From contig OX639973.1 in the NCBI GenBank assembly GCA_951828385.1, forward strand, positions 1,302,001 to 1,366,000: a stretch of DNA of 64,000 nucleotides. The letters run 5' to 3'. Both the position numbers and the translations under genes were made by a program. Below, one piece after another: positions 33,955 through 55,350 of the stretch (positions are counted from its first letter, which is position 1; each line of letters starts with the position of its first letter). The notes beneath the pieces were generated by a model. The model was given only the letters and a program-made list of their open reading frames with translations. It did no database searches and was not told the origin of the DNA. The DNA is from an uncultured Poribacteria bacterium. GTDB lineage: Bacteria; Poribacteria; WGA-4E; WGA-3G.

Positions 33955-35808
33955 ATGTTCTTAGAAAAAATTAATAGCCCAGCGGACCTGAAAAAACTGG
34001 AGATTAGCGAACTTGAAGCACTGGCGGAAGAGATGCGCGCCTATCTACTCACAGTTTTATCCGAGCATCCGGGTCATTTTGCGCCGAACTTCGGGACAGT
34101 TGAATTGGCAATAGCATTGCATAAAGTATTTGACACACCCCGCGATAAAGTCGTCTGGGACATCGGCCATCAGGCGTATCCGCACAAACTGCTTACTGGC
34201 AGAAGAGATGCGTTTCCAACGCTCAGGCAAAGTGGCGGCATCAGCGGTTTTCTCAGCAGAGCCGAGAGTGAATATGACGTTTTTGGTGCCGGGCATTCCA
34301 GCACCTCTATCGCCGCTGCGTTAGGTATTGCGACCGCACGAGACCTGATTAATGAGACTTACAAAGTCGTCGCTATCATCGGGGATGGCGGTTTGACGGG
34401 TGGGATGGCATTTGAAGCGTTGAACACCGCCGGCGACTTCAAGAACGATATGCTCGTTATCCTCAATGATAACAATATGTCTATCTCCGCGACTGTCGGG
34501 GCGTTCTCAAAGCACTTTCACAAGCTCACGAGTTCACCGCGATATAATCTCCTCCGCTCCCGTGTCAAAGAGTTGATGAACTTAATGCCAGCAGATGCGA
34601 AGCAGATCGCGCGTAAAATTGAGGCTTCATTGAAACCGGGGACGCTCTTTGAGGAATTCGGGTTCCGTTATTTCGGACCCCTCGACGGCAACGATTTAGA
34701 GGCACTCATTCCAGTGTTGACAGGCATCCGCAGTTTGTCCGGCCCTATCTTGCTTCACGTGGTAACCGAAAAGGGACGCGGCTATGCCCCGGCAGAAGAG
34801 GATCCGGTCGGGTTTTATAGTGTCAGCGGTCCCTTCAACCTGAAAACCGGAAAAACGATCAAACCGAAACCGCCGACACCCTCCTACACGGAGGTATTCA
34901 GCCGCACACTCATTGAATTAGCGAAACGCGATGCCCGGGTCGTCGGCGTGACGGCAGCCATGCCGGGTGGGACAGGGCTTGATAAATTTGCGAACGCGTA
35001 TCCGAGCCGATGTTTTGACATCGGATTGGCAGAGCAGTGCGCTGTTACGTTCGCAGGTGGACTCGCAGCACAAGGGATGCGTCCTGTCGCTGCTATCTAT
35101 TCTACTTTTCTCCAACGGAGTTATGACCAAGTGTTACACGATGTCTGCATCCAAAACCTCCCGGTCATCTTTGCGTTGGATAGAAGCGGACTTGTCGGGG
35201 CAGACGGTCCGACGCATCACGGTGTTTTCGATTTCGCATACCTGCGTTCTATTCCGAACATGGTCGTCATGGCACCGAAAGATGAGAACGAATTACAATC
35301 TATGGTAAAAACCGCGCTCGCCTATGAAGATGGCCCCATTGCGTTCCGCTATCCGAGAGGCACTGGGGTCGGTGTAAAGATCGCAGCGGAACCACAGGCA
35401 TTGCCTATCGGTGAAAGTGAGATTGTCAGAGAGGGTGAAGATGTGCTTGTCATCGCGATTGGTAACCGGGTTTATCCGGCACTTGAAGCCGCACAAACAT
35501 TGGGTGATATCGGAATTTCAACGGCGGTTGTCAACGCGAGATTTGTAAAACCGTTAGATACTGCAACGATTCTGCCGCTTGCGGAACGTATCGGCAAGGT
35601 AATTACGATTGAAGACGGTGTAATAATGGGCGGTTTCGGCAGTGCGGTCTTGGAAGCACTCGCCGCAGCGGGTATAGCAAACCTCCAAGTTACAAACCTC
35701 GGTATCCCTGACGAATTTATTGAACACGGTGATGTCCAGCACCTTCACGCGCTTTACCAGTGCGATGCTGACGCTGTTGTTCGCGCCGCGCAGAAAATGA
35801 TAGCGTAG
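33955..35808 (+). CDS. dxs: 1-deoxy-D-xylulose-5-phosphate synthase
   Basis: 617 aa. VVWDIGHQAYPHKLLTGR, SRAESEYDVFGAGHSSTS, VVAIIGDGGLTGGMAFEALN (thiamin-diphosphate GDG motif) and the C-terminal transketolase halves (RCFDIGLAEQCAVTFAGGLA, LDRSGLVGADGPTHHGVFD) identify Dxs. Family knowledge: first step of the MEP isoprenoid pathway, from pyruvate and glyceraldehyde 3-phosphate. The order xseA-xseB-(ispA)-dxs-tlyA is common in bacteria; ispA is missing here. The TAG stop lies inside the palindrome CGTAGGG...CCCCTACG that separates it from tlyA. Confidence 0.95.
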   Translation: MFLEKINSPADLKKLEISELEALAEEMRAYLLTVLSEHPGHFAPNFGTVELAIALHKVFDTPRDKVVWDIGHQAYPHKLLTGRRDAFPTLRQSGGISGFLSRAESEYDVFGAGHSSTSIAAALGIATARDLINETYKVVAIIGDGGLTGGMAFEALNTAGDFKNDMLVILNDNNMSISATVGAFSKHFHKLTSSPRYNLLRSRVKELMNLMPADAKQIARKIEASLKPGTLFEEFGFRYFGPLDGNDLEALIPVLTGIRSLSGPILLHVVTEKGRGYAPAEEDPVGFYSVSGPFNLKTGKTIKPKPPTPSYTEVFSRTLIELAKRDARVVGVTAAMPGGTGLDKFANAYPSRCFDIGLAEQCAVTFAGGLAAQGMRPVAAIYSTFLQRSYDQVLHDVCIQNLPVIFALDRSGLVGADGPTHHGVFDFAYLRSIPNMVVMAPKDENELQSMVKTALAYEDGPIAFRYPRGTGVGVKIAAEPQALPIGESEIVREGEDVLVIAIGNRVYPALEAAQTLGDIGISTAVVNARFVKPLDTATILPLAERIGKVITIEDGVIMGGFGSAVLEALAAAGIANLQVTNLGIPDEFIEHGDVQHLHALYQCDADAVVRAAQKMIA

Positions 35809-35855
35809 GGACGAGGGTGCCGCGTCCGCACGGGTTGGGAAACCCGACCCCTACG
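35805..35855. repeat. Palindromic element between dxs and tlyA
   Basis: CGTAGGGACGAGGG on the left and GGGTTGGGAAACCCGACC with CCCTACG on the right form an imperfect palindrome related to the 29-bp perfect copy at 52.5 kb. It supplies the dxs stop codon. Confidence 0.6.
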
Positions 35856-35864
35856 GAGAAAAAA

Positions 35865-36842
35865 ATGCAACGGATAGACATCTTTCTCGTAGAACACGGC
35901 TTAGCGGAGAGCAGAGAACAAGCGAAACGGCTTATCCTTGCCGGTGCTGTAACCGTTAACGGAAACACCCGAATTAAGCCCGGACAGCGTGTTTCTGACG
36001 ATGCGGAGGTCGTTGTTCAGGCACCACAGAGATATGTCAGTCGCGGTGGATTTAAGTTGGAGAAGGCGTTATCTCTCTTTGATGTAGATGTGGAAAATAG
36101 AGTTGCACTTGACGTAGGCGCGTCAACAGGTGGATTCACAGACTGCCTCCTCCAGCACGGCGCAAAATTCGTTTATGCCGTTGATGTCGGTTACGGGCAA
36201 CTCGCTTGGAAACTTCGGACGCATCCACAGGTTCAGTCGATCGAGAAAACGAATATCCGATATTTAACCCCAACACTTTTAAGTAGGGGCGAGGTCACCT
36301 TGAAGAAACCCCCAAGCAAAAACCCCCTACACGATAGCGATGATTTTATCTCTATCGCTGTGATTGATGTCTCTTTTATTTCTCTGCGGACGGTACTACC
36401 GAGTGTCATCAAAATTCTGACACAGCAGAATAGTTGTCAGTCGTCAGTTGTCAGTTTGCAGTTAAGAGGTGGGTTGACTGAATCAGAGTCCTCTTTAACC
36501 GATAACCGACAACCGATAACCGACAACTATAATATTATTGCCCTGCTCAAACCGCAGTTTGAAGCCGGAAAAGCTCATGTGAAAAAGGGTGGGATTGTGG
36601 CTGATAAACAGGTGCATATCCAAACAATAAACAATCTCAGTGTTTTCGTTACGGATAAACTTGGGGCTACGGTGAGAGGGTTGACCTATTCGCCGATCCA
36701 CAAAGACATCGGAAATATTGAGTATCTGCTTTGGCTCACGATTGAACCCGATATGCAAGCGCATGCACCCGAAAAGGACGTTCAACGCCAGCAAACGACT
36801 GCTGAGGTCGTCGCGGAGGCACACGAATTGTTTGACAACTGA
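35865..36842 (+). CDS. tlyA: TlyA family rRNA 2'-O-methyltransferase with two in-frame repeat insertions
   Basis: 325 aa from the ATG at 35865 (GGAGAA upstream); family members are usually about 270 aa. The S4 domain is MQRIDIFLVEHGLAESREQA; then YVSRGGFKLEKAL, ALDVGASTGGFTDCLLQHGA (SAM motif), and IDVSFISLRTVLP with LLKPQFEAGKAHVKKGGIV, which carry the K-D-K-E residues. The surplus of about 55 residues matches two insertions: SRGEVTLKKPPSKNPLHD, and a 33-codon block (NSCQSSVVSLQLRGG to NRQPITDNYN) that is encoded by a dispersed palindromic repeat. Both keep the frame. Family knowledge: methylation of rRNA nucleotides, giving capreomycin sensitivity in mycobacteria. Confidence 0.9.
   Translation: MQRIDIFLVEHGLAESREQAKRLILAGAVTVNGNTRIKPGQRVSDDAEVVVQAPQRYVSRGGFKLEKALSLFDVDVENRVALDVGASTGGFTDCLLQHGAKFVYAVDVGYGQLAWKLRTHPQVQSIEKTNIRYLTPTLLSRGEVTLKKPPSKNPLHDSDDFISIAVIDVSFISLRTVLPSVIKILTQQNSCQSSVVSLQLRGGLTESESSLTDNRQPITDNYNIIALLKPQFEAGKAHVKKGGIVADKQVHIQTINNLSVFVTDKLGATVRGLTYSPIHKDIGNIEYLLWLTIEPDMQAHAPEKDVQRQQTTAEVVAEAHELFDN
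36293..36330 (+). repeat. Degenerate GTAGGGG element inside tlyA
   Basis: GTAGGGGCGAGGTCACCTT and, 10 nt on, ACCCCCTAC look like a decayed palindrome. It encodes SRGEVTLKKP and interrupts the expected loop of the methyltransferase. Confidence 0.5.
36431..36529 (+). repeat. 99-bp GTTGTCAGT palindrome inserted in frame in tlyA
   Basis: TAGTTGTCAGTCGTCAGTTG at the left and CCGATAACCGACAACTA at the right enclose GTTAAGAGG, GACTGAATCAGAGTC and CCTCTTTAAC. The element is 99 bp, exactly 33 codons, with no stop in the tlyA frame although intergenic copies hold stops. Confidence 0.85.
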
Positions 36843-43396: not shown

Positions 43397-46300
43397 ATGG
43401 GCTCTGCAAATTACAACACATTCATAGATAGTGTGATTTGTCTTATCCTGATGTGCTGCTGTTTTTTTTCGCAATCTGTAGGCGCGAACGAACCCACGGA
43501 AACGTCAGGTGACATAAGGGCGGAAAAATTCGCGCTGCGCCAGGCGTTTGATACAACGCGCATAGACAAAATTGAGTACCATATTGATACAGAAGTCGTA
43601 GCCGAAACGACAGCACAATACGACACGCTCAGCAAGCAGACTTCGGTCCGTGTTGCTGACAGATTGTCTCCGTACGCGATTCAACAGAGTATTAAGAAAC
43701 TCTACGCGACACAGCAATATTCCCAAATCCATGTTTACGCACAGGCGCACCGCACTGGCGTTGCGCTCACCTATCAACTCACATCTTTTGATCTCATTAA
43801 AGCGGTTGTCATCGCCGGTGCCGGCATTTCGCCGAACCCATTCAGGTCGGCTATTGAAAATGTGGTAAAATCGAAGCCGGGTGGAAGATATGTCCCTGCA
43901 ATTGCCAAAGCAGATATTATCTACATCAAACGGATTTGCAGAGACCATGGCTATTTTGATGCGCAAGTTACGGTTGCCGATGTCCTTACCGAAGCTGGCG
44001 TATTAACTTATCAGATAACCCCAAATGCGCCGTCAACTATCAAACGGTTGCAAATTCAGGGGAATTCCGCTATCTCAACCAACCGCCTCAAACGTGCTTG
44101 TGGCTTCAGCATACGCTATCCGGTTTACAACAAAGTTGATGTTGACACTGATGTGGCAGCAATGAAAACCCTCTACCGTAAAAACAACTATCCGACTGCC
44201 ACCATCGTGCCGACTTTTACTTCTGAAACAGGTCTGTTGCAGTTTGACATCAATGAAGGCAAGCAGGTCCAGTTTAATTTCGTTCCGAGGACCGGTGAAC
44301 TCTCTTTATCCCAACAAGATACCTTCAGAGAAGATATAGCCGAGGTGATAAGTACGGGGGCACCTACTCTCTGGGAAGGACGGATAAAAGCCTATTTCAA
44401 AGACGAAGGGTATCATGGGACGACTGTGCAGGAGAAAGCTTCGGATGCCTTTAGCGTTCAACTTACGATTAATCCTGGGAATCGTTATAAGGTTAGGCGT
44501 GTCACTTTTTCGGGGAACCGCGCCTTTCCAGACGCGGCCTTACTCCGAGAAATGACAGTGAAACCGACAGTCGGACTTCTCGGGAGTCTGCGCATCTCCA
44601 ATCTTGTTGCCAGACTCCTATCGCGACGCGAACAGAAACGCTTTTTTTATGAAGAAGACCTTCGGAAAGATGAACATCGCCTTCATATTTTTTACGAGAG
44701 AGCGGGTTATCCGAACAGAGTCATTGAGATAAGAGATAAAAAGCTGCCCCTAAACAACCGAAACATTGGCGATGTCGAAATACATGTCTCAATTTTTGAG
44801 GACCGCAAAGAGTTGATTCACCGATGTGTCATCAGCGGTAATCGCGCGATAGATACTGCCACGCTCCTGAAACGTTTGGAAAGCGAACTTCAGTTCCCAC
44901 AACCGAATGCTGTGTTTGAAAGAACTGTCTACCAAGAGGCAGTCCGAAATGCATATCATGAACGCGGATACATCAACGCAAAGGTTACTGACACTTACAT
45001 ATCTGAAACAGAAACTGCAGTTTTTGAAGTAGAAGGTAATTTTTCGGAATCTCTTTCGGAATCTTTTTCGGAGGGTAACTTCCCCTCGGAAATCCGCAAT
45101 GAATTTAAAAGGCACAATCTGACACTCACAGGACCTTTCATAGCCACGAATGTCGGTAACCGCTGGAGCATCCAAGATATTGAGGGCAATCCACGCTATA
45201 CACTCAAACAGGAAGCGACATATCTTGAGGTCTTTGAACACGGTATCCTCAATCTTATTGTGGAGACAGAGGGTGAGCGGGTAACATTCGGTAAATTCCA
45301 TTTTGAAGGCGATACGGACGTTGTGAAACAACACGTTCTCAAACGAGAAGTCGCACATCTTGAGGGGGATCTTTGGACATCTGATAGATTAAGCCGTGCC
45401 TTGCAAAACCTCTCCGCGTTAGGGATTTTTGGTAGGGTTCAAGCAAAACCAGAACCAATCGAAACCGAAAAGATAGAAGGCGGCGATGGTGTCAAAACCA
45501 CTGACGGAGAGAACTCTCACGCTATTTCCAGAACCTATGACGTTTTAGTAACAGTCGACAAGCAGAAACCCAGAACCTATAGTTATGGCGGCGGCTACAG
45601 TTTCGCAGAAGGTTGGAACGGAACGCTGGAGTTAACGGATAGCAACTTCCTCTTTAAACGGAACATCCGAGGCTCCTTCCGCAGTACATTAGGGTGGCGA
45701 GATGAATTAGGTTACCTTGTCGATGCAAGACTGACCGAACCGTGGTTGATTGGTAGGACACGCGGCACCTTACAAGTATCTGCTAAGAAGTTAGAGATAG
45801 ATGACAATGTTCGCGCACTCCAAGGGAGTTTCACCCTCAGTCGGAAATTAGGCGAATCGCATCATTTGGATTTGCGATACAGTTACAGAGACTTGAACCA
45901 ACCGGTGCCACCACTGCGGCAAGCGACACCGACAGTAGGGGCAGGGTTACCCGGCCCCTACGAAGAACAGAACCCATTTAGCACAACCGTGAGTAGTCTA
46001 CGCTTCTCTTGGACTTACGATCGTCGTGTGCGCTATCTGAATCCGATAGGCGGTATGTGGAACGAGATGACACTCGAATACGCAGGTGGCTTCTTGCAAG
46101 GCGGCACGAGTTTTATTAAAACAACGACGGATACTCGATATTACCAAAAACTCATTGGCAGCCTTGTGTTAGTGACCGCGGTTCGATGCGGTATTACGAC
46201 CGGTTTGCGTTCAAACCGCAGCGCGGAACTTATCTCTTTTGAGCGGTTTTGGGCAGGCGGCAGCACGACGGTCAGAGGTTACGCCGAGCGTTCCCTCGGG

Positions 46301-46597
46301 CCCGAAGATATCACAGGGACCTATCGCGGTGATGTCCAATTCATTTTTAATACGGAATTACGGTTCCCAATCTATTCAGTGGTCCGCGGCGCCTTCTTTT
46401 TTGATGCTGGCAACGTCTGGGGGGCACTGGCAGATATTGAGCGTAGCTTAACGCGTTTGCCGTCCGCTGTCGGTGCTGGGCTTTATTTGGATTTTGGCGC
46501 GCTCACAGTTGGCATCGACTATGCCTTTCCGCTCGTGTCCGTTCCGAGTTCACCCGATACAAGAAGAGCACATGTCCGCCTCGGCAGTCCGTTTTAA
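43397..46597 (+). CDS. BamA/TamA family outer membrane protein
   Basis: 1066 aa. A signal peptide (VICLILMCCCFFSQSVGA, cut before NEP) is followed by about six POTRA-type repeats (for example TIKRLQIQGNSAISTNRLKR and KVRRVTFSGNRAFPDAALLR) and a C-terminal beta-barrel with the conserved FWAGGSTTVRGYAERSLG and a terminal Phe (VRLGSPF). Family knowledge: these barrels insert other outer-membrane proteins or, with TamB, move substrates across the envelope. The pairing with the TamB-like gene favours a TamA role; the POTRA count would also fit BamA. Residues 847-855 (VGAGLPGPY) come from a palindromic element in what should be a surface loop. Confidence 0.88.
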   Translation: MGSANYNTFIDSVICLILMCCCFFSQSVGANEPTETSGDIRAEKFALRQAFDTTRIDKIEYHIDTEVVAETTAQYDTLSKQTSVRVADRLSPYAIQQSIKKLYATQQYSQIHVYAQAHRTGVALTYQLTSFDLIKAVVIAGAGISPNPFRSAIENVVKSKPGGRYVPAIAKADIIYIKRICRDHGYFDAQVTVADVLTEAGVLTYQITPNAPSTIKRLQIQGNSAISTNRLKRACGFSIRYPVYNKVDVDTDVAAMKTLYRKNNYPTATIVPTFTSETGLLQFDINEGKQVQFNFVPRTGELSLSQQDTFREDIAEVISTGAPTLWEGRIKAYFKDEGYHGTTVQEKASDAFSVQLTINPGNRYKVRRVTFSGNRAFPDAALLREMTVKPTVGLLGSLRISNLVARLLSRREQKRFFYEEDLRKDEHRLHIFYERAGYPNRVIEIRDKKLPLNNRNIGDVEIHVSIFEDRKELIHRCVISGNRAIDTATLLKRLESELQFPQPNAVFERTVYQEAVRNAYHERGYINAKVTDTYISETETAVFEVEGNFSESLSESFSEGNFPSEIRNEFKRHNLTLTGPFIATNVGNRWSIQDIEGNPRYTLKQEATYLEVFEHGILNLIVETEGERVTFGKFHFEGDTDVVKQHVLKREVAHLEGDLWTSDRLSRALQNLSALGIFGRVQAKPEPIETEKIEGGDGVKTTDGENSHAISRTYDVLVTVDKQKPRTYSYGGGYSFAEGWNGTLELTDSNFLFKRNIRGSFRSTLGWRDELGYLVDARLTEPWLIGRTRGTLQVSAKKLEIDDNVRALQGSFTLSRKLGESHHLDLRYSYRDLNQPVPPLRQATPTVGAGLPGPYEEQNPFSTTVSSLRFSWTYDRRVRYLNPIGGMWNEMTLEYAGGFLQGGTSFIKTTTDTRYYQKLIGSLVLVTAVRCGITTGLRSNRSAELISFERFWAGGSTTVRGYAERSLGPEDITGTYRGDVQFIFNTELRFPIYSVVRGAFFFDAGNVWGALADIERSLTRLPSAVGAGLYLDFGALTVGIDYAFPLVSVPSSPDTRRAHVRLGSPF
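45934..45962 (+). repeat. 29-bp palindromic element in frame in the BamA-like gene
   Basis: AGTAGGGGCAGGGT-T-ACCCGGCCCCTACG, two mismatches from a perfect palindrome. It is read as VGAGLPGPY, the same frame as the copy at 54.5 kb (VWVGLPNPY). Confidence 0.85.
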
Positions 46598-46771
46598 TAG
46601 TCGTCAGAAGAATGGTTGTAAGTTAACGTAAGTTTGGACAAGTCGGATTGCGTGCAACCTGTAGCATAGGAGACCGTTAGTTCCTGTGCATCGTAGCGGC
46701 GCGCTAGGTCTATCAAGGGATTTTTTCACGAGTTTCACACCTCCCGGAACTTGGAGAAAAATAAAAAACGC

Positions 46772-46806
46772 AAAGCGGTGGATTCTCTGTCCACCGCTTT
46801 TGCCTT
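46772..46806 (+). terminator. Rho-independent terminator-like hairpin
   Basis: AAAGCGGTGGA (46772-46782) pairs perfectly with TCCACCGCTTT (46790-46800) around a 7-nt loop, followed by TGCCTTTTA. It would end the transcript of the envelope genes. The A-rich run before it would also serve the other strand. Confidence 0.75.
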
Positions 46807-46865
46807 TTAAGGGTTACCAGTTGTCAGTACGATTTTTTCTGCGAAAAAATCTTTTGGTTGTTAGT

Positions 46866-47003
46866 TATAGTAAAATCCAAAAATAAATACACACTTTCAC
46901 CCCCCGGTAGGTGCGGTTTTTGCGGCGTACACGCCCAGATGCGATCTGCATCCCTAACCGCACCGATGCTGAGTGTATAAGTAATTACAGAATCTACTAT
47001 AAG
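46866..47003. repeat. Composite palindromic element with TATAGTA arms
   Basis: Left arm TATAGTAAAATCC and ATACACACT; right arm, read in reverse, TATAGTAGATTCTG and ATACACT. Inside, GGTGCGGTT and AACCGCACC enclose GCGGCGTACACGCCCAGATG, which is related to the core of the element at 27.95 kb. Confidence 0.65.
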
Positions 47004-47082
47004 AGGTGCTAACAGTCGGGTGTGGTTCATGATGGATGCTACGCGGAAATCTTGAAGACTTCAAATTTCACTATAAATTTGT

Positions 47083-47111
47083 TTGATTTTTCCCAAAAAA
47101 TATCGTATAAT
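47083..47111 (+). promoter_or_regulatory. Promoter of the lamin-tail surface protein
   Basis: TTGATT (47083-47088) and TATAAT (47106-47111) are 17 nt apart. The leader to the ATG at 47264 is about 145 nt, and GGAGGGG lies 9 nt before the ATG. Confidence 0.72.
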
Positions 47112-47263
47112 ATTAGTTACATGCAGGACTTAGAATTTATTAATTTAAATAATAAACAATTGACGGGTTATAACCGAAAGTTGCTGGTTGTCCATCTAAG
47201 CGAAACCCAACACCTTACTTTTATCAAACGCACGTTATTTACATTTTGGAGGGGAAATAATCT

Positions 47264-48445
47264 ATGCCAAATCGGTTAACATTTTTGTTGACGAGTTTAA
47301 TTCTAATTTTCGCACTTGTGGCACTGCCAGCCATGGCGGAAACATTGAGTGCGACATGGACAGATGACTTGGATGGGGATGGAACTGCTGATGACTCGGG
47401 GTGGAACGTCACTCTTACGTATGACACTGCCCCAGCAACCGATTTTTCGTTACCTGCTATTAAGGACATTAAAAATAAGAGCTTGGGCTTGGACTATAAT
47501 AATCCACCTGATGATACGACGACGGAATTTGCTTTTGATGTACCTGTGAGTTCTTCTGCTTCAGAGGCGGATCGATATATAATTATTGGAAATTTCCGCC
47601 GAGTTACCCTCGAAAATGGACAACCTCTGGCTGAAACATCGATTGCTCTGCCGAAGTTGAAAAGCATTACCGCACCTACGTATGTGAATGGGAACTTTGA
47701 GGCTACCATTACGTTTGAGGCTGAGGCAGCCGCGGCTCCAGGCCAGCCACCAAGTACAGCTATCGGTCCTGCGGAGGGGCTCCTACCGACCGATATACTG
47801 GTATTCTCTAAGGCTTTTCTGAAAAGCTACCCCACGCTCCCGCCGTCGCCTAAGGTTGTGAGTGTCAGTGAGGGGCCGGAGGTGTATACCGTGGAAATCA
47901 ATCCTGGAGAGGTTTCTCGCGAGCCAGTGACCATAGAGTTAAATAAGAATCCACCTTTTCGAACTACTCCAAATACTGGCACTTACTTCCCACGTCACCC
48001 CCCAGTGACACTCGCTGAGCCTGATCATCCTATGGCAGTAGTGATCTATGAGGTTGTTCCGCCAATCATAACTCCTGGTTTTGCGCATGCAATTCCTGTC
48101 AACAACAAGGGACCCGAACCCTCCGCTCAATCGGGTGAAGGTCGCTTCTATATTACTTTTGAGGTTGAAGATGAAGGACAGTTCGACCATATTGCTGGTG
48201 TTGATGCTTCAAGCATCAATGCAGAATCATTTACGGATACTCTAAGTGTTTTATCCTTTAGCGATGCGCGTCGGATGGAATCCTCCAACAATCGTTTGGT
48301 AAAACAACTATCACTGCCATCTCAACAATGCCAGCGACTACAGGGGACCAGGCAGACTTTGAAGTGGTCTTTACCTTCAATAGAGCACTTCCGAACGATC
48401 TTGACCTGGCAGACTTGTCGATCGGTACGAGGGCCGGTGACATGA
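47264..48445 (+). pseudogene. Lamin-tail surface protein, 5' part upstream of a frameshift
   Basis: The ORF gives 393 residues. A signal peptide (MPNRLTFLLTSLILIFALVA, cleaved near AMAET) starts a secreted protein with beta-rich domains (WTDDLDGDGTADDSGWNVTL). The sequence makes sense up to about LSVLSFSDARRMESS (near 48285). After that the residues (QQCQRLQGTRQTLKWS) are an out-of-frame reading of a repeat that is read properly in the next ORF. A -1 shift between about 48258 and 48298 joins both into one protein of about 1400 residues. Whether the shift is a mutation, an assembly error or a programmed event cannot be told from one sequence; no classical slippery heptamer is present. Confidence 0.7.
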
Positions 48446-49059
48446 TGGATGGCGATGTCGCAAATGATACCGTGACACGTGCCACGGATCCGATGTTCTT
48501 GGGTACCCCGAGGCGCGTACCGCGAGAGCCCATGAAGTGGCAAGTCACGGTCAGTCCAAAGAGCGGGACGGATACAATCGTCGGGCTTAGTGCGGCGCGG
48601 ATGATGAAGTTTACCTACGGTCCTGATGTTAAAGCACTAACCGTTAAGCAAAGGGCTGAGCCAACTGTTGGCACTATTGGTAAAACAACTATCACTGCCA
48701 TCTCACCAATGCCAGCGACTGCGGGTGACCAGGCAGACTTTGAAGTGGTCTTTACCTTCAATAGAGCACTTCCGAACGATCTTGACCTGGCAGACTTGTC
48801 GATCGGTACGAGGGCCCGTGACATGGTGAACGGCGATGTCGCAAATGATACCGTGACACGTGCCACGGATCCGATGTTCTTGGGTACCCCGAATCGCGTA
48901 CCGGGAGAACCCATGAAGTGGCAAGTCACGGTCAGTCCGAAAAGAGGGGCGGATACAATCGTCGGGCTTAGTGCGGCGGGGATGATGAAGTTTACCTACG
49001 GTCCTGATGTTAAAGCACTAACCGTTAAGGTTAAGAAAACTGTTGGCACTATCACCGGG
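48298..49059 (+). repeat. Two tandem 381-bp repeats (127 residues each)
   Basis: GGTAAAACAACTATCACTGC recurs at 48298 and 48679, and the following 340 bp are nearly identical (only some dozen changes, for example TTGDQADF/TAGDQADF). Each unit encodes one bacterial Ig-like or Big-type domain beginning KTTITAIS. Confidence 0.85.
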
Positions 49060-51471
49060 CCAACTGTTGGCACTATCGCCGCGACGTATGACGACGCTAC
49101 CACGACGACAACCCTTTCAGGCGCGATCGCTGCAAACGGGTTTGCTGTGATTGACTACACGGATCTTCCCGATCTTGAGTTTTTCTTCTATCTCGGTGGT
49201 ACGATCACCTTAGATGATGGCGACAGTGCTGATGACAGGAACTCTCGCTCCGTTGTTATCAGTGAAATCCTGTGGGGGTTTGACCTCGGTGAAGTGCTTG
49301 CCTATGCAACGAAGCACCAGTTTATTGAGTTGTATAACACAACTGCGGCCGCTATAGATCTCACGGGTTGGAAACTCGTCTTCACGAGAGGGAACGTTCG
49401 CCCCGCTATTGATATCGATCAGGTCAGCAACCGGGGGGCCAGCGGTTGGAAAGTTAATACCGGCGATACTGGCAAGAGCGGACGTGTCACTAACACATTG
49501 GCTACCAATCCTCAGAGTAGGATTCCGCCGATCGCCATCATCTCCATGTATCGGAATATTAATTACACCCACGTTGAGACGCAAGCCGCCAAAACCATCG
49601 TCGATCGCGCGGAACTGGTCGAAGGGATACCCGACGGTACCGCTAAAGGCTCCTGGAAAAATTCTGAGCGTCTTTCGGTGACCCCATCGGTCTACGCTAC
49701 ACCCGGGGCGAAACATTACGCCACGACGGTGCGCCTGGTAGCGAGTAACGTTGCGGGTACGCCGTTCCGCATCAACGAGATCGGTAATGATACCGGTGGT
49801 GAGAACGACTGGGTCGAACTCCATAACCTTTCAAATGCCGAAGCGTCGTTGAATAACTACGCATTGTCAATGGTAACGGCGAGAGGCACCGATACCGAGC
49901 TGTTTGATTTCAAGGATCAAGATTGGAAAGTGCCTGCGAAAGGGTTTATCGTTATCTCAACGCGGCATCCGAGAAATACGGATCTCGCTACGGGTAAAGA
50001 CATCTCCATCCGAGACAATGAGGAATTGAACAGAGGTTTGAACCACCTCTACGTTGTGAAGGCTGGTTGGAATCTCCAAGATGATGGGAAATTTGCGCTC
50101 ATCCTTCGGAACGCACACGACAAAGAGGAAAAAGCCGAAAACCTCATAGATGTTGTCGCCACGCACCAAGGCGCGTTTAAAGACGATAGCATCGGCACCC
50201 GTCTCTGGCCCCTGAAAGTTACCGGTTTACCGGATGGCAATGTGATTGACGGCGGAGACGAAAACTTCGCTGCCGGTAAAGTCTATCAGCGAAATAGCGG
50301 CAATGGTAGAGGCGAGAAACACCTCGCTGTCGCTGTTTATACCGGCATCGGTTATGATGTCAAAGCGGCAAAGGGAAGTGCGAACTATGGAACGCCTGGC
50401 TACGCGAACGACGCAGCCAAAGCTAATGAAGCAGGTCTCACTGAGGGTGTCGTCACTATCAGCGAAATCATGGTGGATGTCGGTGATGCTGCGCTGCGTC
50501 GGAACCTGCCGCAGTGGATTGAACTCCACAACTCATCTGATACGGAGGGTGTCAACCTTGAGGGGTGGAAACTTTACATCGAGAACGCTGCACAAGAGAA
50601 CGGGGCGTTGGAAACGAACACGCTCAGCGCAACGGTCACGCTCACTCAGAAGTTTATCTTACCCAACCAGACGGTACTGATTGCCTCAAGATCGGGCGAT
50701 GTCTATGATCCGAATCATTTCCCACCGCATCGTGTCATCAAGCTCTGGACGACCAAGGCACATCGGGACGCGTTAGAGATGACGCGTAGCACCGATCCCG
50801 TCTTGAGCAGCAGAGGTTTCAGCATCATATTAGAGGACAAGGACGGCAACGAGATTGATACGGTGGGTAACCTTGGCGGCAACCGTCGCACGCGTGATGA
50901 ACCCGCTTGGCCGCTCCCGATGCACGAGGCGGATGACCTGAGCCGGAGTTCGTTGCTCCGCGTCTACGATCGAAAGCTTGCTCTCGATGGGACAGACGAG
51001 GATTCGTGGATATTGGCGAGTGACACTATCCTCGCTTTTGAGGGCTCTTATACCTATTATGGTAGTGCCGATGACATAGGTTCACCGGGGTACCGGACGG
51101 GGGGGCCGCTGCCTGTCAGCTTATCGAAGTTCCGTCCGGAACGGTTGGATGATGGCTCGATCCGTATCGGTTGGGTCACTGAATCTGAGTTGAACAACGC
51201 TGGATTCAATATCCTCCGGAGTGAAAAACAAGACGGTGAATTCACGCAGATTAACACGAAATTGATCGCAGGTCAAGGGACAACGAGTGAGCGTTCGACT
51301 TACACGTATACCGATCCATCTGCGAAACCCAATGTCGTCTACTATTACCAGATTCAAGATGTTTCCTTAGACGGTCAAGTCTCAACCTTGCGTCAGACCC
51401 GTCTGAAAGGTCATATCTCCCCTGCTGGTAAGTTGACTACGACATGGGGTGACATAAAAGCGTTGCAATAA
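48328..51471 (+). CDS. Lamin-tail domain surface protein, 3' part downstream of a frameshift
   Basis: 1047 residues from the first ATG in frame, which lies within a repeat and is unlikely to be the true start; the frame is open from about 48260. It has two 127-residue repeats, then three lamin-tail-like domains: SVVISEILWGFDLG with QFIELYNTTAAAIDLTGWKL, FRINEIGNDTGGENDWVELHN, and VTISEIMVDVGDAALRRN with QWIELHNSSDTEG. The C-terminus PVSLSKFRPERLDDGSIRIG, then NNAGFNILRSE, is a sorting-like or fibronectin-type tail seen on such proteins. The likely place is the cell surface or outside the cell. It continues the protein begun at 47.26 kb. Confidence 0.78.
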   Translation: MPATTGDQADFEVVFTFNRALPNDLDLADLSIGTRAGDMMDGDVANDTVTRATDPMFLGTPRRVPREPMKWQVTVSPKSGTDTIVGLSAARMMKFTYGPDVKALTVKQRAEPTVGTIGKTTITAISPMPATAGDQADFEVVFTFNRALPNDLDLADLSIGTRARDMVNGDVANDTVTRATDPMFLGTPNRVPGEPMKWQVTVSPKRGADTIVGLSAAGMMKFTYGPDVKALTVKVKKTVGTITGPTVGTIAATYDDATTTTTLSGAIAANGFAVIDYTDLPDLEFFFYLGGTITLDDGDSADDRNSRSVVISEILWGFDLGEVLAYATKHQFIELYNTTAAAIDLTGWKLVFTRGNVRPAIDIDQVSNRGASGWKVNTGDTGKSGRVTNTLATNPQSRIPPIAIISMYRNINYTHVETQAAKTIVDRAELVEGIPDGTAKGSWKNSERLSVTPSVYATPGAKHYATTVRLVASNVAGTPFRINEIGNDTGGENDWVELHNLSNAEASLNNYALSMVTARGTDTELFDFKDQDWKVPAKGFIVISTRHPRNTDLATGKDISIRDNEELNRGLNHLYVVKAGWNLQDDGKFALILRNAHDKEEKAENLIDVVATHQGAFKDDSIGTRLWPLKVTGLPDGNVIDGGDENFAAGKVYQRNSGNGRGEKHLAVAVYTGIGYDVKAAKGSANYGTPGYANDAAKANEAGLTEGVVTISEIMVDVGDAALRRNLPQWIELHNSSDTEGVNLEGWKLYIENAAQENGALETNTLSATVTLTQKFILPNQTVLIASRSGDVYDPNHFPPHRVIKLWTTKAHRDALEMTRSTDPVLSSRGFSIILEDKDGNEIDTVGNLGGNRRTRDEPAWPLPMHEADDLSRSSLLRVYDRKLALDGTDEDSWILASDTILAFEGSYTYYGSADDIGSPGYRTGGPLPVSLSKFRPERLDDGSIRIGWVTESELNNAGFNILRSEKQDGEFTQINTKLIAGQGTTSERSTYTYTDPSAKPNVVYYYQIQDVSLDGQVSTLRQTRLKGHISPAGKLTTTWGDIKALQ

Positions 51472-51514
51472 TAGCATTAACTCGGTTATTCAGGGAGAAG
51501 TCTATAACCGATAA

Positions 51515-52438
51515 CTATTCCCCGTAGGGTTTTCCTAAAGCGAGAGGTGCCTCTGCACGTCCAACAAAACCTGCCAGTACCGCTAAGCAGAGGATATAAG
51601 GCAACATCAACCACAGCTGGTATGGAATGCCCCATCCCAGTGCTTGGAACCGCGCATCGAGTGCGGAACCGAGTCCGAAGAGCAACGCAGCACCGCACGC
51701 CTTCACAGGATGCCATTTCCCAAAAATAACGATCGCCAAAGCGATGAATCCGCGCCCAACGGTCATCCCCGGTGTAAAATAGGGGACATCGGCGAGGGAG
51801 AGATACCCGCCTGCCATACCCGCCATCGCACCCGCGAAGAGTAGACAAAGCGTTCTCAAGCGGAGCACATTAGCACCGACGGTGGCTATCGCCTTCGGAT
51901 GTTCGCCACACGCACGTATCCTGAGCCCCACCTGTGTATGGTAGAGAAAGAAATAGACACACGGCATCAGCAGGAAGGTAATGAAAACGAGGATATTGTG
52001 TGAAAACAGGGCGCGTCCGAAGAAAGGGATTTGGGAGAGCAGGGGGATGTCAATCTGCTGGAACGCCGGCACGCCTTTCGCGATCCCTGTTACACCGAAA
52101 AGCCGTTGATAGATGACTTCCGTCAACCCTAACGCCAAAAGCGTCATCGCCGTGCCGATAATCACTTGGTCACCCCGGAGCCTGATGGCACATAACGCAA
52201 AGAGCGCGGCAGCGATAAGTCCACTCAGTCCGGCTATCAGCAGCCCGAACCAGGGCGCGAACATCACGAATTCCGCTGTGTAAAAGGAGCCGACCATCCC
52301 AAAAAACGCACCGATGAGCATCATCCCTTCAATGCCGATGTTCAGTACACCTGCACGTTGGGAGATGACTTCACCTAAAGCTGCCAGCAGGAGCGGTGTC
52401 GCCCCGCGAATCGTTGCCGAAAGAATTTCTTCAAACAT
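51515..52438 (-). CDS. ABC transporter permease, nucleoside/BMP type (second permease)
   Basis: 307 aa, about nine membrane helices. RGATPLLLAALGEVISQRAG, then VLNIGIEGMMLIGAFFGMVG, is the conserved N-terminal stretch of NupQ/YufQ-type permeases; YFTPGMTVGRGFIALAIVIF is the permease loop that meets the ATPase. Family knowledge: together with the other permease, the double ATPase and a BMP lipoprotein it imports nucleosides or related compounds. It ends the operon on the minus strand. A perfect palindromic element lies in the 214-bp gap before it. Confidence 0.87.
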   Translation of the reverse strand: MFEEILSATIRGATPLLLAALGEVISQRAGVLNIGIEGMMLIGAFFGMVGSFYTAEFVMFAPWFGLLIAGLSGLIAAALFALCAIRLRGDQVIIGTAMTLLALGLTEVIYQRLFGVTGIAKGVPAFQQIDIPLLSQIPFFGRALFSHNILVFITFLLMPCVYFFLYHTQVGLRIRACGEHPKAIATVGANVLRLRTLCLLFAGAMAGMAGGYLSLADVPYFTPGMTVGRGFIALAIVIFGKWHPVKACGAALLFGLGSALDARFQALGWGIPYQLWLMLPYILCLAVLAGFVGRAEAPLALGKPYGE

Positions 52439-52495
52439 GATTTTTAACTATTAAGTTTTTGCTCGTTTTTCTCCATTGTCGAAAAACGGTTTTTG

Positions 52496-52524
52496 CGTAG
52501 GGGCTGGGTTACCCAGCCCCTACG
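52496..52524. repeat. 29-bp perfect palindrome between the two permease genes
   Basis: CGTAGGGGCTGGGT-T-ACCCAGCCCCTACG, 14-bp arms without mismatch. It is the reference copy for the elements found in coding sequence at 45.93 and 54.51 kb. Confidence 0.9.
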
Positions 52525-52652
52525 AGATATTGTAAACCATTACGCTTTTGATCTTTGGCAAAGTACAATCTTTGGCTGTCAACGCGTGCCTTGATATTGA
52601 TGATATAAGAACGCTTACAACTTCAATAAACACCGCTTCAAACCACCTACTC

Positions 52653-53726
52653 CTACTCGGAATGTGAAGATGTACGCTTGCGGAACAGCTGCACAGAACT
52701 ATAACCGATAACAAAAAGCAGAATTGTCGCTTGCATCACAAACGTCACTTTGTCAGAGATGCCCACTGTTCGCTGCATACTGTATGAACCGGTCGATAGC
52801 GCGCCAAACAGCAACGCAGCAGCAACCGTTACCAACGGATTCAACTTCGCTAACAGTGCAACCGCAATCGCTGTGTAACCGTATCCGGGCGAGAAATTGA
52901 GAAAAAGTCGGCGAGTCAGTGCGGTCAGTTCAATCGCGCCGCCGAGTCCTGCAAGTGCACCGCTAATGAAAAAAACCCGGAGGGTGTTATGCATAATCGA
53001 AATCCCCGCCGCTTCCGCTGCAGCCGAGCCTTCGCCTACTGCGCGGAGTTGATACCCAAACGCTGTCCGAAAGAGGATAAACGTCAGGATAATCGCTAAT
53101 ACGACAGCGATAACGATGCCGAGATGGACCCGGTGCGGTGGGAAAAGCCGTGGTAGAAATACCCACTCGGCGATCCGATCGCTCTGCGGACCGCGTTGCG
53201 CGGTTTCTTGCAACGGACCGCCATCTATCATCATACTCACCAGATGGAGCGCGACGTAGTTCAACATAATCGTACTAATAACTTCGTTGACGCCGCGTGT
53301 TACCTTGAGGATTGCCGGAATAAGTCCCCATATTCCGCCTGCCAGCATCGCAAGACCGAGGCATATCGGCACAGCAATCCAAGGCGTTTCAGGAAAAAGT
53401 GGAGCGAGTTTCGTTCCAAACCACGTCGCTGCTAACGCACCCATCAGGAACTGTCCTTCGGCACCGATATTCCAAATCCCACACCGAAACGCCATCGCAA
53501 CCGAGAGTCCTGTCATCAGAAACGGCGTGCTTTTCACCAACGTTTCTCCGAATTTCCTACTATTCCCAAATGCGCCGCTCACCGCTGCCTGATAAGCCTC
53601 TAACGGGTTGTAGTTGCAGAGCAGCATTATAACGGCGTTTGTAACAAACGCACTCGCGAGAATTAGAACCGGGGTCACTACCCAATGAACGTTGATTCTT
53701 TTGAAGAGGTTGGTTACTTTTAACAT
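52653..53726 (-). CDS. ABC transporter permease, nucleoside/BMP type (first permease)
   Basis: 357 aa from the ATG at 53726, which is one base after the ATPase stop; the frame continues to a TTG at 53747 and another ATG at 53738, so the start is open to doubt. VTPVLILASAFVTNAVIMLL, NPLEAYQAAVSGAFG, FRCGIWNIGAEGQFLMGALA and VNEVISTIMLNYVALHLVSM are the NupP/YufP-type motifs, with about nine membrane helices. It is the partner of the permease at 51.5 kb and is coupled to the ATPase gene. Confidence 0.87.
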   Translation of the reverse strand: MLKVTNLFKRINVHWVVTPVLILASAFVTNAVIMLLCNYNPLEAYQAAVSGAFGNSRKFGETLVKSTPFLMTGLSVAMAFRCGIWNIGAEGQFLMGALAATWFGTKLAPLFPETPWIAVPICLGLAMLAGGIWGLIPAILKVTRGVNEVISTIMLNYVALHLVSMMIDGGPLQETAQRGPQSDRIAEWVFLPRLFPPHRVHLGIVIAVVLAIILTFILFRTAFGYQLRAVGEGSAAAEAAGISIMHNTLRVFFISGALAGLGGAIELTALTRRLFLNFSPGYGYTAIAVALLAKLNPLVTVAAALLFGALSTGSYSMQRTVGISDKVTFVMQATILLFVIGYSSVQLFRKRTSSHSE

Positions 53727-53727
53727 C

Positions 53728-55350
53728 CTAACAACCATTTCCTCCAAAATCTTTATGGGTTTGCCCCGTCATTAACAATCCGAGTGCTTCAATATCGTTG
53801 CGCTGCGCCGTCGCTTCGATCAACTTACCCCTCGACATCACAAAGAGCCGGTCACTCAAGAGTAGGACTTCATCTAACTCTGTTGAGATGAGCAGGACAG
53901 ACTTACTTTGATTGCGTTGTGCCAACAAATTCTCATGGACATAGCGAGCGGCGTTGACATCTAAACCGCGTGTCGGATTAACGGCAATAAGTAGATCGGG
54001 GTGAAGCGAGATTTCTCGGGCGAGGACAATTTTTTGTTGGTTGCCACCGGAGAGTGCAGCAGCAGGGATGCCACCGATAGGCGGACGGATGTCATAATCA
54101 GCGATAAGTTGTTCTGCGGTGTTCTGTTTTCTTCTTTGATTAAGGACATTCCAGCGTGCCGTGTTTTCCAAATGCGTTACATTCAACAAAAGGTTTTCCG
54201 TAACCGAGAACGACGCGATAACACCCGTCGTTTGCCTATCTTCGGGGATATAACCGACCCCGCGCTGTCGTACCGCCTTTGTCCCTTTCGGATCGGTGCC
54301 TAAGATGTTTACTGTCCCTGATTCGCTGTGCCGTAACCCCATAATCGCTTCGGCGAGTTCGCGCTGTCCGTTGCCATCAACGCCAGCGATACCGACGATT
54401 TCACCGCGACGGGTCGCCATAGAGATATCTGACACCGCGATTTCGTTACGACTGCCGAGTACGGTCAGATTTGAGAGTTGCAGCACGCTATCTGGAGGAT
54501 CACTCTCGTATGGGTTGGGTAACCCAACCCATACGGAGCGTTCAACTTCGTTGATTTCTTCGCCGATCATCTCCCGCGCGAGTCCCCGTGCGGTCAGTTC
54601 ACCCGTCGGACCGAGATAGACTTTTTTGCCGCGCCGTAAAACGGTAATCCTATCGCTGATGTTTAAAACCTCTTTCATTTTGTGGCTAATGAAGATAATC
54701 GCGCGACCATCGGCTTGGAGTTTTCGGAGGATTGTGAAGAAACCTTCTACCTCCTGCGGACTTAGAACAGCCGTCGGTTCGTCAAGAATGAGAATCCGAG
54801 CGTCAACTGCCAGTGCCTTTAGAATCTCTACGCGTTGCTTTAAGCCTACGGAGAGGGTCCGCACTAACGCACCCGGATCAACAGTCAAACCGAACTGTTC
54901 TGAAAGTGCTTCGGTAATGTGAATCGCGTCTTCTTTTTTAAAGCGGAATTTTCCCAACGCTTTCTTATAAGCACCGTTTTCAGATGGATTTCCCGCTGAG
55001 CCCCGACGCACTTGCCCAAGACTCAAAGCGATATTCTCAGCAACAGTCAGACTTTCAACCAACATAAAATGCTGATGCACCATGCCGATCCCGCTCACAA
55101 TCGCATCACGCGGAGACTTTGCCCGTAACCTACGTCGCCACCCTTCACGATCTGTAACATAGATACGTCCGTCTGACGGTTGATAAAGCCCATAGATAAG
55201 ATTCATCAGTGTGGACTTTCCGGCACCATTTTCCCCTAAAATCGCATGGATTTCACCGGCTTGAAGTTCAAAATCGACGCTGTCAACGGCGACAAAATCA
55301 CCGAAGGTTTTCGTAATATTCCGAAGTTCAAGGATGTTTTCTTTTTGCAT
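53728..55350 (-). CDS. ABC transporter ATP-binding protein with two ATPase domains (nucleoside/BMP type)
   Basis: 540 aa. The first ATPase has Walker A LGENGAGKSTLMNLIYGLYQ, signature TLSVGLKQRVEILKAL and Walker B ILILDEPTAVLSPQE. The second has GVDGNGQRELAEAIMGLR (degenerate Walker A), ALSGGNQQKIVLARE and LIAVNPTRGLDV. This is the NupO/YufO (RbsA-like) layout. The linker at about residues 270-281 reads SVWVGLPNPYES and is encoded by a perfect 29-bp palindrome, so it is probably an insertion. The gene follows the DUF6807 gene with no gap between stop and start codons. Confidence 0.9.
   Translation of the reverse strand: MQKENILELRNITKTFGDFVAVDSVDFELQAGEIHAILGENGAGKSTLMNLIYGLYQPSDGRIYVTDREGWRRRLRAKSPRDAIVSGIGMVHQHFMLVESLTVAENIALSLGQVRRGSAGNPSENGAYKKALGKFRFKKEDAIHITEALSEQFGLTVDPGALVRTLSVGLKQRVEILKALAVDARILILDEPTAVLSPQEVEGFFTILRKLQADGRAIIFISHKMKEVLNISDRITVLRRGKKVYLGPTGELTARGLAREMIGEEINEVERSVWVGLPNPYESDPPDSVLQLSNLTVLGSRNEIAVSDISMATRRGEIVGIAGVDGNGQRELAEAIMGLRHSESGTVNILGTDPKGTKAVRQRGVGYIPEDRQTTGVIASFSVTENLLLNVTHLENTARWNVLNQRRKQNTAEQLIADYDIRPPIGGIPAAALSGGNQQKIVLAREISLHPDLLIAVNPTRGLDVNAARYVHENLLAQRNQSKSVLLISTELDEVLLLSDRLFVMSRGKLIEATAQRNDIEALGLLMTGQTHKDFGGNGC
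54507..54535 (-). repeat. 29-bp perfect palindrome in frame in the ABC ATPase gene
   Basis: CGTATGGGTTGGGT-A-ACCCAACCCATACG, 14-bp arms without mismatch. On the coding (minus) strand it is read VWVGLPNPY, in the same frame as the element in the BamA-like gene. It lies in the linker before the second ATPase domain. Confidence 0.9.

Follow-up and report, generated by a model that had tools for sequence, protein, structure and literature searches.

Di Nocera et al. (2013, PMC3733652) described GTAG-tagged REPs from many phyla. They reported copies that lie in frame within genes and stop codons that the tag provides, and they argued that surviving copies lie in linkers or loops. Published REPs have a tag at only one of their ends, outside the stem. 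Bertels and Rainey (2011, PMC3116915) noted that a REPIN without its interior would be a long palindrome, and the mechanism by which REPs and REPINs insert is unresolved in that work. Rickettsia palindromic elements (RPEs) are in-frame palindromes that lie in unrelated genes and add a peptide (PMC10969869).

Here, we analysed a palindromic repeat from the 6.66 Mb Candidatus Poribacteria genome (G000), for which we found no description in Poribacteria in the open-access literature. We consider it likely that the repeat belongs to the mobile elements of the double-tagged GTAG-REP/REPIN kind and, very small and non-autonomous, is moved by a RAYT-type transposase, inserts with small deletions and survives in variable loops. 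The 64-kb stretch of DNA that was analysed, referred to here as the window, contains three 27-bp copies together with one 48-bp and one 50-bp relative. These copies and the two host genes are as follows.

35805-35854, unstranded: 50-bp form, GTAGGGACGAGGGTGCCGCGTCCGCACGGGTTGGGAAACCCGACCCCTAC, which has two hairpins between ends like those of the 27-bp copies
36283-36330, plus strand: 48-bp form, GTAGGGG-CGAGGTCACCTTG-AAGAAACCCCCAAGCAAAAA-CCCCCTAC, in frame in a TlyA-like rRNA methyltransferase/hemolysin-type ORF (35817-36842)
43397-46597, plus strand: host gene encoding a BamA/Omp85-type outer membrane assembly protein (POTRA repeats and Omp85 barrel), 1066 aa
45935-45961, plus strand: 27-bp element, CAGGG/CCCGG variant, in the BamA-like gene; translated as V-G-A-G-L-P-G-P-Y, in place of 15 bp that are GAAATCCGTTTACCT in the closest relative
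52497-52523, unstranded: perfect palindromic copy of 27 bp, with a permease gene on either side; G010 has TTAGGTTATT (10 bp) instead
53728-55350, minus strand: host gene encoding the double ATP-binding-cassette ATPase of a sugar/nucleoside-type ABC importer, 540 aa
54508-54534, minus strand: 27-bp perfect palindromic element, TATGGGTTGGG variant, in the ABC ATPase gene; translated as V-W-V-G-L-P-N-P-Y, in place of 15 bp

A search of the window returned three matches (at two places), compared with none in 100 dinucleotide shuffles. The sequence-only reading of this DNA had described a perfect palindrome of 29 bp with a central T at 52496-52524, with copies inside the BamA-like and ABC ATPase genes that are read as VGAGLPGPY and VWVGLPNPY in the same frame. 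We confirmed the intergenic palindrome and the common frame in both genes. The two genic copies lie where they had been placed, but the one at 45934-45962 differs from 52496-52524 by three mismatches and has an imperfect stem, and the one at 54507-54535 is a sister sequence (CGTATGGGTTGGGTAACCCAACCCATACG), itself a perfect palindrome, that is missed when three mismatches are allowed. Because 45934-45962 starts with AGTAG and not with CGTAG and its stem is imperfect, we set the shared unit at 27 bp (45935-45961), which has the form GTAGGGG..CCCCTAC and the consensus GTAKGGGYNRGGTNACCYNRCCCMTAC. The 48-bp (36283-36330) and 50-bp (35805-35854) relatives were absent from the earlier list. At the former site, G020 carries an 18-bp form and G010 none, and the GTAG of the latter supplies the TAG stop codon of the dxs-like ORF upstream (33955-35808). 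Elsewhere in the window, the overlapping ORFs at 47264-48445 and 48328-51471 contain repeated segments (SPMPATAGDQADFEVVFTFNRALPNDLDLADLSIGTRA) and look like a single long secreted repeat protein that a frameshift has interrupted.

Across the whole genome, 60 copies matched the consensus with at most three mismatches, compared with none for a reversed control pattern. Grouped by common ends, the size classes were 27 bp (60), 48 bp (8), 50 bp (3) and 71 bp (1), the last three being a minority beside the 27-bp form, whereas a control pair of ends gave a single chance match. The working unit has a GTAG at each end, with a single hairpin between the tags in the 27-bp form and more interior sequence in the forms of 48, 50 or ~70 bp. 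The 48-bp form contains the 20-nt module AAGAAACACCCAAGCAAAAA, and the 50-bp form consists of two different hairpins, as in a REPIN. Variants of the stem show complementary changes on both arms (CTGGG/CCCAG, TTGGG/CCCAA, CGAGG/CCTCG and TTAGG/CCTAA). Among the copies with one perfect end and a perfect core (n=33), GTAG is kept at one end in every case; by a hand count from the copy list, the other end has GTAG exactly in 19, nearly so in 6 and not at all in 8. Because the tag is exact at both ends in 19 of 33 copies, and nearly so in 6 more, the tags pair with each other. Near genome position ~1918875, the half element GTAGGGGCTGGGTTACC stands in four tandem 17-bp copies, the last of which completes the palindrome.

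The number of copies in 24 genomes of the same genus ranged from 0 to 56, with 0 in G021 and 4 in G009, both single-contig genomes, and 56 in G015. Other genera had 0 to 28 copies. An exact match was present in only one viral contig, and there is therefore no sign of phage carriage. The element is dispersed (~60 copies) and polymorphic between related genomes, and its apparent mobility is read from this genome comparison.

At the BamA site, the palindrome is present in G000 alone and absent from 21 congeners. The nearest relative, G010, whose flanks are 95 and 97% identical, has ACACCGACA-GAAATCCGTTTACCT-GAAGAACAG, and G000 has ACACCGACA-(27 bp)-GAAGAACAG. The 15-bp piece can be aligned throughout the genus, and we therefore take it to be ancestral and to have been replaced. 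In the ABC ATPase gene, the element occupies the identical site in G000, G017 and G018, and the other 18 congeners have five to six residues there; the flank identities do not discriminate whether a small recombination tract lies behind this copy. Both genic copies are thus lineage-specific. The orthologous sites, partly filled and partly empty, agree with the spreading palindrome that the sequence-only reading had proposed, but the 9-10 extra residues that it had predicted are not seen: 27 bp replace 15 bp, and five residues become nine, a net gain of four.

The same reading had placed both genic copies where proteins tolerate insertions, and conservation in 21-residue windows bears this out, with the sites at the 3.3 (BamA) and 1.9 (ABC) percentile, in the least conserved stretch of each protein. 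In the predicted model, the ABC site is coil with a pLDDT <50, within a disordered linker between the two ATPase domains, as had been suggested. The AlphaFold model of the BamA-like protein (mean pLDDT 43) is unusable at the insert region; a barrel loop is a plausible location for that copy.

To characterize the footprint of insertion, we compared filled with empty orthologous sites, using empty sites with flanks that were 80-97% identical; the boundaries shift by 1-2 bases depending on the alignment. Host DNA (about 4-18 bp) was missing in the comparison with the empty site at 19 of 19 resolved sites. The replaced piece measured 15 bp at seven sites, 12 bp at four, 9 bp at three and 18 bp at one, 15 bp being the commonest length in genes (seven coding sites), where the net change in length is a multiple of three. 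At the intergenic site 52497-52523, 10 bp were replaced, and two gene-junction sites lost 5 bp and about 4-8 bp. Few as they are, these intergenic and junction sites show that the loss is not confined to coding sequence. At several sites, all element-free relatives have homologous bases in the replaced piece (e.g. GACTTAGTGCAG/GACTTCGTGCAG), and the host piece is therefore ancestral. We found no target-site duplication of the MITE type in the flanks, host bases being lost instead.

Insertion thus seems to remove 4-18 host bases, and we found no earlier report of such a replacement footprint. It differs from the clean join that is expected of IS200/IS605 relatives. Possibly, although we hold this only tentatively, the 27-bp element spreads by replacement as such, each insertion entailing the loss of a short target piece of fairly constant length (near 15 bp) and a few host residues being repeatedly swapped for a fixed peptide. 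To our knowledge, neither IS200/IS605 nor DDE transposases give the loss of a target piece of near 15 bp. Replaced DNA appeared enriched in TAG/CTA (10 of 16 compared with a 26% background), but this observation was post hoc and depends on the relative chosen, and we set it aside. At the intergenic positions 500523, 1415069 and 2945920, G000 has the palindrome and the relatives have another, longer repeat (TTATCAGTTATCGG..., ~50-100 bp).

Alternatively, the footprint could be a two-step artefact, in which an ordinary clean REP-like insertion was followed by separate small adjacent deletions that were selected for protein length. Most resolved sites do lie in variable gene loops, where length changes are common and a small net change would be favoured. 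However, a clean 27-bp insertion was seen at none of the resolved sites, and the flanks beyond the replaced piece are unchanged, as in the BamA-like gene with its 95/97% identity to G010. Moreover, gene-junction and intergenic sites, where protein length is irrelevant, are also without 5-10 host bp. We therefore regard a clean insertion with later deletions as unlikely.

It is also improbable that old insertions were merely shuffled among congeners by homologous recombination and randomly lost, with little or no current mobility. Such shuffling would fit the ABC site, which is filled in G000, G017 and G018 and empty in G005, G010 and G020, the nearest relatives of G000, and recombination between shared ends could yield the 18-, 27-, 48- or 70-bp forms that a single site can carry in different genomes. 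It accounts less readily for the many sites that are filled in G000 only and with an intact 27-mer (BamA, 3746601, 3918538 and 3948604), and for a copy number that runs from 0 to 56 within one genus.

We consider it very unlikely that the palindromes arose in place, by template switching or quasi-palindrome correction and with no movement. Site 4918808 points in that direction, because the element of G000 retains host-like bases (ACACCGC) within the palindrome, G010 already has GTAGG and CACCG, and the replaced DNA is similar to the element (z 2.97, p 0.004); G005 and G020 carry a 70-bp form there. Over 16 sites, however, the replaced DNA showed no overall homology to the element (combined z 1.16), and one family consensus recurs at unrelated sites.

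Using a simple ORF and hexamer caller, we placed 32 of the 60 copies (53%) in predicted genes. If insertion were random and one frame closed, 81% would be expected in genes, and the observed share is well below this (p ~1e-6), as would be the case if many genic insertions are removed. Of the 32 genic copies, ten use the GTA frame, which gives VGxGLPxPY and relatives, and 20 the NGT frame, which gives RGxVTxPL. The remaining two use the third frame; there the tag has a TAG on either strand, and only copies that no longer have this TAG are read in it. These statistics are biased, since an in-frame TAG ends the ORF and the copy is then not counted as genic. The sequence-only reading had assumed a single stop-free frame and one preferred frame among coding copies. 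Instead, stops are absent from two frames, and genic copies are read in both (10 compared with 20, p 0.10). Related coding sequence was found in congeners for all 26 protein blocks queried (27 genic sites), and most host genes are therefore real, although a few gene calls, at copies near gene starts, are doubtful.

That the inserts are kept because their peptide or RNA hairpin is useful to the host gene is scarcely credible, since the two recurring peptides (VGxGLPxPY and RGxVTxPL), although found in unrelated proteins, come from both stop-free frames in host proteins that share no relationship, and genic copies are fewer than the coding density would predict and lie in the least conserved parts of proteins. 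The encoded peptides are most likely tolerated by-products and not functional parts.

As to the transposase that may move the element, the genome has 12 matches to Y1 transposases (PF01797). Two of these exceed the cut-off of 80 bits for the curated NCBIfam model NF047646, at 137 and 93 bits, and are RAYTs. One RAYT lies at genome positions 1235057-1235527. Sister palindromes such as GTAGGAGCGAGCTGCGCTCGC stand beside the RAYT that scored 137 bits, as does a copy that contains the 20-nt module TTTTTGCTTGGGTGTTTCTT of the 48-bp form. Several RAYT loci of congeners are flanked by other GTAG hairpins, and the hairpin at the RAYT of G009 (GTAGGCGAGGTTAGAAACCTCGCC) is close to the CGAGG variant. 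No RAYT in G000 or among the congener loci was found to be flanked by the exact 27-bp palindrome, and a single query returned no RAYT from G002 (27 copies) or G005 (23 copies), both draft genomes. For these two reasons, we infer, and do not read directly from the loci, that a RAYT-type transposase probably moves the palindrome.

The second RAYT (genome positions 474600-478900) lies within tandem-like repeats together with two other GTAG hairpins (GTAGTGCGATTTATCGCAC and GTAGGGCAATTCATTGCCC). The IS200-type Y1 transposases (9-10 of the 12 PF01797 matches) were rejected as carriers, their flanks being without the palindrome. One IS200-type Y1 transposase is located at 1719-2072, at the edge of the window, and an IS200-like transposase at genome positions 3788500-3792800 is flanked by repeated CACCCCGTAGGGGTGCAATGTC units.

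In the proposed mechanism, a RAYT-type (HUH/Y1) transposase whose gene lies at another place in the genome would copy the element as single-stranded hairpin DNA. The hairpin would be joined to a target, with a few bases lost from the target ends. Selection would remove insertions that disrupt the frame or bring in an in-frame TAG. The genic survivors would be those in variable loops and linkers that are read in one of the two stop-free frames and change the net length by a number divisible by three.

With dozens of filled and empty orthologous sites in one genus, the footprint of insertion becomes directly readable, and the apparent loss of 4-18 host bases at insertion is the part worth following. 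The element also represents one way in which bacterial proteins naturally acquire short peptide replacements in frame, of which we found no report for the phylum Poribacteria.

The small dispersed repeats of Nostoc, which Elhai et al. are said to have described in 2008 as mobile hairpin sequences of 21-27 nt, are reportedly similar in size to the Poribacteria palindrome and different in sequence, and we know of no in-frame copies inside genes among them. The RPEs, to which the sequence-only reading had likened the palindrome, share its way of life as in-frame palindromic inserts in unrelated genes that are absent from orthologues. They are set apart by length and probably by sequence (~150 bp there, compared with 27 bp and the replacement of host bases here), and the resemblance is thus an analogy and not a family match, GTAG-tagged REPs being closer. 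The Poribacteria element may resemble REPINs (PMC3116915) in its two inverted REP-like ends, outer tags and variable interior, but its main form, the putative unit of mobility, is 27 bp with one hairpin and not a doublet with a spacer. The 27-bp form could be a REPIN that has lost its interior.

The closest described class is that of the GTAG-tagged REPs. In common with these (PMC3733652), the Poribacteria palindrome is a hairpin within the range of 20-40 bp with GTAG at at least one end, shows compensatory stem variants, numbers tens of copies in a genome with RAYT genes, has in-frame genic copies and supplies TAG stops from its GTAG. It differs in that most copies are tagged at both ends, with the tag inside the full palindrome and not as an unpaired one-end tag outside the stem, and in that 32 of 60 copies lie in predicted genes, whereas GTAG-tagged REPs are mostly extragenic. 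Host DNA is replaced at the insertion point, a topic absent from PMC3733652, and Poribacteria are not among the phyla listed there. Intragenic GTAG-REPs have already been published, and the Poribacteria palindrome is a new branch of that known class.
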